NCBI RefSeq assembly: GCF_003285545.1
Contig: NZ_QLNV01000011.1
Coordinates: 1 to 64,000 of the forward strand
Direction of reading: 5' to 3'
Length of the DNA: 64,000 nt
Origin: Sinomicrobium soli
GTDB taxonomy: Bacteria > Bacteroidota > Bacteroidia > Flavobacteriales > Flavobacteriaceae
Numbering within the stretch: position 1 is the first letter of the stretch; every line of letters begins with the position of its first letter. Below, one piece after another: positions 48,712 to 50,592 of this stretch. The notes under the pieces were generated by a model that worked only from the letters and a program-made list of their open reading frames with translations, searched no databases and was not told where the DNA came from. A program made the position numbers and the translations under genes.

Positions 48712-49200
48712 CTATTCCGCTTTCTCTATCTGCAGGCCTACATCCGTAATCCCTTCGAGTTCTTCCAGTCCTTCTTCTTCCCCCACTTTTCTCATGGCCT
48801 GCTCTATACCGACAGCATAGGTGCCCGGTACCGGAAAAACTACCGATTCCTTATACCACAGCCTGTTCTCCTTCAGGTCGGTAAACCCCCGGCCCAGCCA
48901 GGTACCGTCCGGTGCTGCCATTTCGTATTCGAGAGTGTCCGCAATAACCCTGCCATCGGGAAAATCGAGATTTACGATAAGGTAAAGATTGCTGAAAGGA
49001 TAGCGTTCGTCATTTCTCAGGTTGATAAACATGTCATAAACCTGTGTCGTATCGGGTGCCTCGAAGGCAAACTCCACAGCTTTCCCTTTGGGCCAGGCAT
49101 CCTCCAGCGCCCTGTATTCGGAATACACGCCTGAGGCATGATCGCAGGACAGCATCAGCATACATCCCGCAACCGATAACGATCTGCATATATTCGTCAT
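48712..49200 (-). CDS. gldH: Gliding motility lipoprotein GldH
   Basis: Lipoprotein required for gliding in flavobacteria; the exact role is unknown, and it acts with the GldB-N/T9SS system. The 162 residues have a lipobox (LMLSC, Cys19), then the family sequence VYSEYRALEDAWPKGKAVEF and the core YDMFINLRNDERYPFSNLYLIV, and end WYKESVVFPVPGTYAVGIEQAMR. It sits between ricT (upstream) and PBP1A (downstream), the usual order in Flavobacteriia. A MITE-like element separates it from ricT. Confidence 0.9.
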   Translation of the reverse strand: MTNICRSLSVAGCMLMLSCDHASGVYSEYRALEDAWPKGKAVEFAFEAPDTTQVYDMFINLRNDERYPFSNLYLIVNLDFPDGRVIADTLEYEMAAPDGTWLGRGFTDLKENRLWYKESVVFPVPGTYAVGIEQAMRKVGEEEGLEELEGITDVGLQIEKAE

Positions 49201-49246
49201 TGCTTAGAAATTAATTGATACCAACTGCCGTACACCATCAGGCATA

Positions 49247-49407
49247 GAACTCGTCTTGAGTTATTATAATTTGCTGCAAAACCCTCTTTTGCACCCATAT
49301 TTTGTCTTTTTTTCTCCCCATAGCTATGGCTATGTGGCTCAAAAAAGCCTTCATCTGGGCACAAAATAGTGGCTTTTCGCCTAAATGAAACAACCCAAGA
49401 CGAGTTC
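49247..49407. mobile_element. 161-bp MITE-like element with 12-bp terminal inverted repeats
   Basis: GAACTCGTCTTG at 49247-49258 and its perfect reverse complement CAAGACGAGTTC at 49396-49407 bound the element. Weaker symmetry continues inward for another ~12 bp (GTT, TT, TTT match). A perfect palindrome CCATAGCTATGG lies at 49318-49329, almost exactly in the middle, and smaller hairpins (GCAAAA/TTTTGC at 49274-49291) fill the arms. The trinucleotide ATA occurs just outside both ends, a possible 3-bp target duplication. It fills the gldH-ricT gap and contains no ORF of its own. Confidence 0.6.
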
Positions 49408-49416
49408 ATATCCTTT

Positions 49417-50592
49417 TTATTCCTTTTTTCTCGCTGCTTTCCGGGGCGCCCGTTTTTTCCCGTTCTTTCCTCTTCCCTTGGCCCTGCGTTTTTTCCTGGG
49501 CTGATCGAAGCGGGTAAGGCTATCCTGTCCTACAACGTTTTCAAATGCTTTTTTAGTATCTTCTTCCACAATTTCCGAAGCGTATTCCTCCAGGCCGTCT
49601 ACCCTGACATCGTGCTTGTTCTTGTCGATAATATCGTGAACCTGCTCCAGGGTGAGCTTGTGCCAGTTGGCGCCGTTATCTTCATAGGCATACCACAGGA
49701 ACCCCTTGAATATATCTATTTTCTGGCATACCGCCCTTCCCCTGGCGGTGAACAGCTTCACGTCTGTTTTCGGAAATTCGTGCAGCGCATCGAGGTAGGC
49801 GTCGAGCTCGTAATTGAGGCAGCATTTGAGCTTTCCGCACTGTCCTGCGAGTTTCTGAGGATTAAGCGACAGTTGCTGGTACCGTGCCGAAGAAGTATTT
49901 ACAGAGCGAAAATCCGTAAGCCAGGTAGAGCAGCACAATTCCCTTCCGCACGATCCTATCCCCCCGAGACGGGAAGCCTCCTGCCTGAAGCCTATCTGCC
50001 GCATTTCTATACGCACGTTAAAAGCACGGGCCATGTCCTTGATCAGCTGCCTGAAATCCACCCGTTCTTCTGCCGTGTAATAGAAGGTGGCCTTGGAACC
50101 GTCGCCCTGAAATTCTATATCGGAGATCTTCATCTGGAGCCCGAGCGCTATGGCCAGTTCCCGCGATCTCTTTTTCACTTCTTCCTCCTTGTCCCTCACA
50201 CTCGTCCAGATATCGATATCGCGCTGTGTGGCCTTGCGGTATATTTTGGGAAGCGCCGGATCTTTCCAGTCTGTCTTTTTCCGTTTCATCTGCACCCTTA
50301 CCAGCTCCCCGGTAAGGGTAACGATCCCGACATCGTGACCGGAAGCCGCTTCGGTGGCGACGACATCCCCTATGGAAAGGGATATGTTCTGGGTATTCCT
50401 GAAAAACTCCTTACGGCTGTTCTTAAAACGCACTTCCACACAATCAAACGGCTCCTGCCCTGCCGGAAGCGACATATTGGAAAGCCAGTCAAAAACAGTC
50501 AGTTTATTACAGCCATCGGTACCGCATGTTCCGTTATTCTTACATCCCCGTGGCTGTCCTCCCTTTCCGGTAGAACAACTGCTACATCCCAT
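49417..50592 (-). CDS. ricT: RicT/PSP1 family regulatory protein
   Basis: A 391-residue protein with a Cys-rich N-terminus (MGCSSCSTGKGGQPRGCKN, many Cys within 35 residues) and the PSP1 core: CVEVRFKNSRKEFFRN, then GGIGSCGRELCCSTWL, and GQCGKLKCCLNYE with the Cys sets that bind an Fe-S cluster in Bacillus RicT (YaaT). RicT partners with RicA/F in B. subtilis RNA processing; the job in Bacteroidota is undefined. The C-terminal ~40 residues are basic (KKRRAKGRGKNGKKRAPRK). Precedes gldH in the same direction. Confidence 0.9.
   Translation of the reverse strand: MGCSSCSTGKGGQPRGCKNNGTCGTDGCNKLTVFDWLSNMSLPAGQEPFDCVEVRFKNSRKEFFRNTQNISLSIGDVVATEAASGHDVGIVTLTGELVRVQMKRKKTDWKDPALPKIYRKATQRDIDIWTSVRDKEEEVKKRSRELAIALGLQMKISDIEFQGDGSKATFYYTAEERVDFRQLIKDMARAFNVRIEMRQIGFRQEASRLGGIGSCGRELCCSTWLTDFRSVNTSSARYQQLSLNPQKLAGQCGKLKCCLNYELDAYLDALHEFPKTDVKLFTARGRAVCQKIDIFKGFLWYAYEDNGANWHKLTLEQVHDIIDKNKHDVRVDGLEEYASEIVEEDTKKAFENVVGQDSLTRFDQPRKKRRAKGRGKNGKKRAPRKAARKKE

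Follow-up and report, generated by a model that had tools for sequence, protein, structure and literature searches.

What a 161-bp sequence with perfect inverted repeats at its ends is doing between ricT and gldH is the question raised by this locus, which lies in a window (the whole stretch of DNA that was analysed) of 64,000 nucleotides from Sinomicrobium soli. A sequence-only reading had taken it for a non-autonomous transposable element. This proposal is borne out here by dispersed copies, 3-bp target duplications, an empty site in relatives and the closely related ends of an IS family. The 161-bp unit is very probably a MITE, and from the comparison of its ends we infer that it would be moved in trans by an ISBf6-like IS5 transposase. 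The features of the locus are these:

49247..49407, minus strand: MITE, 161 bp; minus is the strand of the model, with the stronger hairpin and in sense with ricT and gldH, based on genome copies, model match and folds
49247..49258, plus strand: left terminal inverted repeat GAACTCGTCTTG, read from the sequence
49396..49407, minus strand: right terminal inverted repeat GAACTCGTCTTG, perfect reverse complement of the left end
49244..49246, no strand: target duplication ATA, 3 bp, left copy, abutting the element end
49408..49410, no strand: target duplication ATA, 3 bp, right copy, abutting the element end
49389..49407, minus strand: terminal helix of 19 pairs, 5' side, partner 49247-49265; minus-strand reading of the predicted fold
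49318..49329, no strand: palindrome CCATAGCTATGG, 12 bp, inside the hairpin apex; broken in two of the seven own copies
49417..50592, minus strand: ricT (PSP1 family, PF04468), upstream neighbour in the reading direction
48712..49200, minus strand: gldH (GldH, PF14109), downstream neighbour in the reading direction

The symmetry that had been noticed from the letters is present at both scales. The terminal inverted repeats comprise 12 perfect pairs, or 19 pairs including G-U on the minus strand, and ATA flanks the unit on either side. Beyond the repeats, the element matches its own reverse complement at 70% over its full length and its end arms of 37 nt are 73% complementary, in agreement with the weaker extended symmetry described earlier. 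The central 12-bp palindrome exists as claimed, but its centre (49323.5) is 3.5 bases away from that of the element, and because CTAAGG replaces the required CTATGG in two of the seven own-genome copies, it is the hairpin apex and not the palindrome as such that is conserved. Domain matches to GldH and PSP1 confirm that the unit separates gldH from ricT. As both genes are read on the minus strand, the element lies in line with them, with 9 nt separating it from the ricT stop and 46 nt from the gldH start. The unit is short and carries no transposase gene; two ORFs of at least 60 aa overlap it and neither lies wholly inside, one being a 70-aa frame on the minus strand (49197-49409) that passes through the element and the other a 423-aa frame on the plus strand that begins inside it and runs antisense to ricT.

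The window holds a single copy, and further copies are spread over the host genome (4.61 Mb, 43 contigs). Seven full 161-bp copies, including that of the window, are 96-100% identical, and six of them have an exact 3-bp direct repeat outside their ends. With four additional variants of 215-216 bp in the same genome, the element is far above chance, and the high identity of the full copies suggests that they are probably recent. The unit also recurs in related genomes, where a search had been proposed: by DNA similarity, 7 of 60 genomes match, the host's own included. A search for GldH was positive in 38 of 40 genomes, and 30 gldH loci were returned, one of which was the host's own, leaving 29 relatives for comparison. 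In 29 of 29 relatives read, ricT precedes gldH, as expected of a conserved gene order, and the gap between the two genes is without the element, which provides the anticipated empty site, in relatives and not in strains. In the closest relative (G004, GldH 80% identical) this gap measures 52 bp against 216 bp in the window, exactly the remainder after subtraction of the element and 3 bp (216 - 161 - 3 = 52). When the two flanks are joined and set against the G004 gap, 22 of 52 positions are identical, a value that 13 of 2000 shuffles also reach; the flanks have diverged. Dispersed copies and an empty site, both expected of a MITE, are found together here, and the opposite picture, one copy kept at this site throughout the relatives, was looked for and is not what these genomes hold.

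Several other forms occur beside the full-length copies. In a long variant of 213-216 bp, a GC-richer segment (GGGCGGAGCGTTACG...) replaces about element positions 118-129. Its loci are:

C11:360561-360776, C1:48084-48299, C22:254045-254260 and C22:406715-406929, host genome G000: long variant (L035-L038)
C33:189332-189544, congener G001: long variant (L050)

Its occurrence in two species indicates that this variant is probably an old subtype. A sister type, with four copies in the host genome, has GAGC(T/C)TGTTTAAA-like ends and the core in common. Over the loci L039-L042, L051-L054 and L059 its ends read GAGC(T/C/A)TGTTTAAA with mostly TNA 3-bp duplications, and compared by sequence the two types look as if ends had been swapped around a common core. 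L060 (24852-24969 of G003:C105) and L065 (G001:C51) have ends that stand between those of the two types (GAACTCATCTTAACTTTT, GAACTCGTTTAAAC). Remnants shorter than the full copies are present in the host genome too, including a 76-bp one that lacks the core. Such core-less 76-bp copies (G000:C40:130851-130926, L043, and G003:C67:1298-1373, L058) have their break at CAAAA and are nearly identical in sequence in two species; they are the product of a deletion or else a form that still moves without a core. A diverged copy at G000:C41:228569-228728 (L045) has a C-rich insertion of roughly 50 bases within the core.

A covariance model built from nine elements, which matches the window's copy with 187.9 bits on the minus strand and 89.2 bits on the plus strand, recovers members from 26 of 149 host-family genomes, corresponding to 25 of 148 genera. 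A class-wide draw of 296 genomes had members in 8: the host's own, G152 and six that belong to five further families. Six families, with more than 30 genomes between them, contain the fold of about 160 bp. The numbers of copies are minimum values, with strict filters and at most 19 candidates scored per genome in the family scan and at most 10 in the class draw; the E-values of the model are rough. In named genomes, an extended pattern of the ends matched seven stretches, four in Sinomicrobium pectinilyticum and one each in MAGs of Pricia (74 bp), Allomuricauda (160 bp) and a Bacteroidia bacterium (161 bp). Among 97 members from the family and named relatives, 87 measure 159-161 bp, and 19 members of other families measure 159-164 bp; this even length is partly selection, as both sets were drawn from full-length model matches. 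The 97 elements were kept from 201 model matches in 100 sources, one per source on the better strand, leaving out L067, L157 and L163, which repeat L229, L065 and L061, together with the secondary matches found in L067, L170 and L196. For the other families, 19 of 27 listed matches in six genomes were read; the remainder comprised one full-length match, a 176-bp match, two 195-bp matches and several that were shorter. Pairing of ends in G152, made independently of the model, gave 31 of 38 pairs at 159-162 bp among the matches listed, along with five at 911-929 bp, one at 174 bp and one at 315 bp.

The duplications have a fixed length in the wider family as well. Exact 3-bp repeats flank 68 of 116 family members, compared with a shuffled mean of 10.3 and a maximum of 22, and are absent in the other 48. 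In a further 60 loci, 24 of the 54 that matched the profile over about 120 bp have exact 3-bp repeats at the match ends. Single end matches, found in 48 of 397 genomes, are largely at chance level because a backwards control also matches many genomes, and only pairs were therefore used. Plasmid and phage records gave no blastn match to the element, and 35 viral stretches with an exact 16-base end held no element by the model at E 0.01.

Which transposase might act on these ends is suggested by G152, a genome of the host family assembled in one contig. Here, end-like sites pair at about 160 bp and, at least five times, at 911-929 bp. Each of the five long loci contains a DDE transposase gene (three uninterrupted, two broken). 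The transposase matches DUF4096, DDE_Tnp_1 and NCBIfam NF033580 (IS5; 119.8 bits, cut-off 110) and is 61.9% identical to the plasmid-annotated transposase of ISBf6, its nearest annotated relative among plasmid records. ISBf6 itself has ends GAAGTGATTTAAACTT with 950 bp between them. A 927-bp IS with an open 303-aa frame and ends GAACTCGTTTAAACTTTTT / GAAGTGATTTAAACTTTTT is present in the congener G001, decayed IS copies occur in G003 and G005, and a more distant relative of the transposase (46.4% identity) was found in Bernardetia. These ISs make duplications of the same length as the MITE, i.e., exact 3-bp repeats at four of the five long G152 loci, TAT in G001 and CAT in Bernardetia, the exception being the ISBf6 copy read, whose flanks AAT and TTT hold no exact 3-bp repeat. 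As a side observation, the ISBf6 copy L290 on the Bacteroides fragilis plasmid NZ_CP036548 directly adjoins the nitroimidazole-resistance gene nimE, as annotated.

Several end variants of the superfamily match ISBf6-like ISs. The TCTTGAC variant is common to MITEs and IS copies in G152 and G100, and a GAACTCGTTTAAAC-type end is found on an IS of the host genus. The sequence-only reading had suggested a search for an IS with exactly GAACTCGTCTTGAGTT ends; the variant was on no IS found, and no IS-size pair of GAACTCGTCTTGAGTT ends was present among the matches listed. Searched with a single query at E 0.001, the transposase matched in 11 of 99 genomes and in none of the host assembly, G002 and G004; in a further 17 genome handles it matched in 4 and not in 13, while the model or paired ends detect family members in 15 of the 17. 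One query may overlook distant transposases, and absence from the host assembly is weak evidence since a draft assembly can lose repeated ISs. With no IS found to carry the exact end variant and no such transposase matched in the host assembly, we can only infer the mover of the window's own copy, and judging from the related ends it is likely an ISBf6-like IS5 transposase. Two own-genome DDE_Tnp_1 loci were rejected as mover, as they have no convincing ends of this kind. An end-like pair 1.78 kb apart on the host contig C22 was set aside, the sequence behind its ends being unlike that of the family and its flanks without a repeat, and two G165 pairs (1.1 and 2.1 kb apart) enclose frames that look by eye like ordinary genes, none of them transposase-like. 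Briefly, an IS5-family, ISBf6-like DDE transposase would recognise the GAACTC... ends in trans, transposition of the unit would make 3-bp, mostly A/T, target duplications, and the interior is a conserved hairpin core of about 120 bp and nearly constant length, with compensatory changes across many genera.

This core bears no visible relation to the interior of the candidate ISs. When two MITE cores were compared with four ISBf6-like ISs, between 19 and 132 of 200 letter shuffles scored at least as high, and since the interior scores no better than shuffles, descent by deletion from the ISs tested is not visible in the element. We therefore rejected an origin as internally deleted IS; by these comparisons the element looks like an independent hairpin with IS-like ends. 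On the gene strand it is predicted to fold from end to end with -69.7 kcal/mol, compared with a shuffled mean of -34.1 (z -9.5), and on the opposite strand with -49.2 kcal/mol (z -6.4). In the presumed ricT-gldH transcript, the computed fold would make the element a long stem-loop. The long hairpin suggested earlier for this mRNA is, in this sense, a prediction from computed folding. A consensus scan from 49000 to 49600 gave no promoter-like or terminator-like site, and no Rfam family reached its gathering score in 49000-49700, the sole match being MIR2670 with 23.1 bits against a cut-off of 117.

Conservation of the hairpin is apparent in an alignment of 34 related members from 32 genomes, which was made without structure and from whose consensus the structure was derived. 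Among the 44 pairs kept, 33 have changes on both sides, and 93.7% of cells pair. The covariation score is 0.509, compared with 0.191 when shuffled (0 of 500 as high) and 0.110-0.162 with partners slid. Changes on both sides affect 15 of the 19 pairs of helix 1, and compensatory changes run from the ends to near the tip. The aligned sequences indicate that the hairpin is kept by compensatory change. The two strands of the element are not equivalent. In 113 of 116 copies the better fold is that of the model strand, and a sequence-only profile, built on the same nine sequences as the covariance model, gave the model's orientation in 116 of 116 members. Of the further 60 loci, 54 match the profile over about 120 bp, and in 50 of these the profile strand folds better. 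A wobble-blind self-alignment counted 626 G.T against 391 A.C mismatches, with an excess of G.T in 26 of 32 genomes and of A.C in 4.

Orientation relative to genes points in the same direction as the strand that folds better. A crude ORF caller, which classified 111 of the 116 loci and picked the antisense ORF at the window's own locus, placed elements in co-directional gaps 42 times in the same and 27 times in the opposite direction. The low-GC subset (64 of 116 loci) gave 26 same versus 12 opposite (p 0.034), with a GC filter that was chosen after all loci of this first half were seen. The pre-stated replication on 60 further loci, 53 of them low-GC, gave 18 versus 8 (p 0.076), i.e., the same direction and not significant alone. 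Pooled over 63 low-GC, complete, co-directional loci out of 175 (L324 omitted as a repeat), sense exceeds antisense by 43 to 20 (p 0.005), where copies within one genome are not independent; by genome, the pooled counts are 4 versus 4 in G100 and 12 versus 8 in G152. The window's own copy lies in sense, and its locus exceeds the GC limit and was not counted. The sense excess hints at selection on, or an insertion bias for, the RNA-folding strand.

Three other explanations have to be weighed against a MITE served by an ISBf6-like transposase. A non-mobile, site-specific regulatory RNA or attenuator of the ricT-gldH operon could appeal to the strong fold between genes that are neighbours in 29 of 29 relatives, but with the element absent from this place in all 29, many copies elsewhere and no terminator-like site we give such an RNA next to no probability and rejected it as the sole reading. 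The element could also be mobile and owe its movement to another transposase, the IS of which has been lost or is unassembled here, with the resemblance of ends being a case of convergence. This would explain why the host assembly is without an ISBf6-like gene though its copies are 96-100% identical, and 13 of 17 genome handles searched are likewise without one. However, the duplication length is equal, MITE end variants are found on ISBf6-like ISs in G152 and G100, and a GAACTCGTTTAAAC-type end sits on an IS of the same genus, which makes another mover unlikely.

The third explanation, that the core is kept for an RNA-level function as a stem-loop shaping mRNA processing or stability and that copies are partly domesticated components of transcripts as well as parasites, is compatible with a MITE and in our view possible without being probable. 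It is favoured by the double changes in 33 of 44 pairs with a covariation well above the shuffled value (0.509 versus 0.191), by the better folding of the model strand in 113 of 116 copies, by the preference of G.T over A.C (626 to 391) and by the sense excess of 43 to 20, including the pre-stated replication of 18 to 8. Yet the hairpin could be maintained for transposition alone, strand asymmetry could be inherited among copies that are not independent, and the insertion at ricT-gldH is lineage-specific. In addition, G100 (4 to 4) and G152 (12 to 8), the crude gene caller and the post-hoc GC filter weigh against a function in transcripts, and no Rfam family fits. We thus retain a MITE moved in trans as the preferred reading. 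It is intriguing, and at present speculative, to propose a class-wide lineage of about 160 bp in which the covarying RNA hairpin is the conserved unit and not an IS remnant, with ends that would adapt to the resident ISBf6-like transposase and a core that would be selected on one strand as RNA, settle in sense in operons and act on mRNA. If true, the result would be a two-part parasite whose ends are swappable and whose cargo is a functional RNA, each half being separable from the other.

In bacteria, a MITE is commonly portrayed as what one IS has recently left behind in a single species. MITECca01 of Cardinium is one example of this single-IS, single-species picture, as it is presented in PMC9769881. 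The part of interest here is the wider family, with a hairpin interior that covaries and has no relation to the ISs tested, and with a strand preference, and the unit's membership in a class-wide superfamily with conserved structure is beyond what the single window shows. With the superfamily at hand it becomes testable whether a non-coding element persists across a class by transposition alone or through what its hairpin does in transcripts, and the practical use of the superfamily is as a model for annotators of repeats between genes of one operon, e.g., before gldH. The part of the published MITE literature covered by our search gave no account of a hairpin family of about 160 bp across Bacteroidia.

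Among known systems, ISBf6 (IS5 family; B. fragilis plasmid NZ_CP036548) has ends, GAAGTGATTTAAACTT, close to the GAACTCGTTTAAAC and GAAGTGGTTTAAAC of family members, but it carries a transposase, unlike the MITE, and the interior of four relatives of ISBf6 that were compared is without similarity to the MITE core. Non-autonomous elements with IS5-type ends, as here, are described from Porphyromonas gingivalis, where the ends of the MITEs BrickBuilt and MITE239 match the IS5-family elements ISPg1, ISPg3, ISPg4 and ISPg9; BrickBuilt has no transposase remnant and holds 23-nt tandem repeats (PMC4596501). The P. gingivalis elements differ in their ends (GAGACC..., ACGTGAG...) and duplications (GAAA, AAAA), a distinction that follows the description in PMC4596501. 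ERIC resembles the present element as a many-copy element spread across families, in its case of enterobacteria and vibrios, and Correia elements in transcripts are, by the same source, cut by RNase III at their ends (PMC10969869). ERIC and Correia elements belong to other lineages and were compared through their description in PMC10969869, a review that covers what both do in transcripts. MITECca01, as described in PMC9769881, is about 240 bp long, belongs to the IS982 family, derives from its parent IS and is known from one strain, where an IS is proposed to maintain its many copies in trans; the 161-bp element differs in having an interior unrelated to the ISs tested and in being found in many genera.
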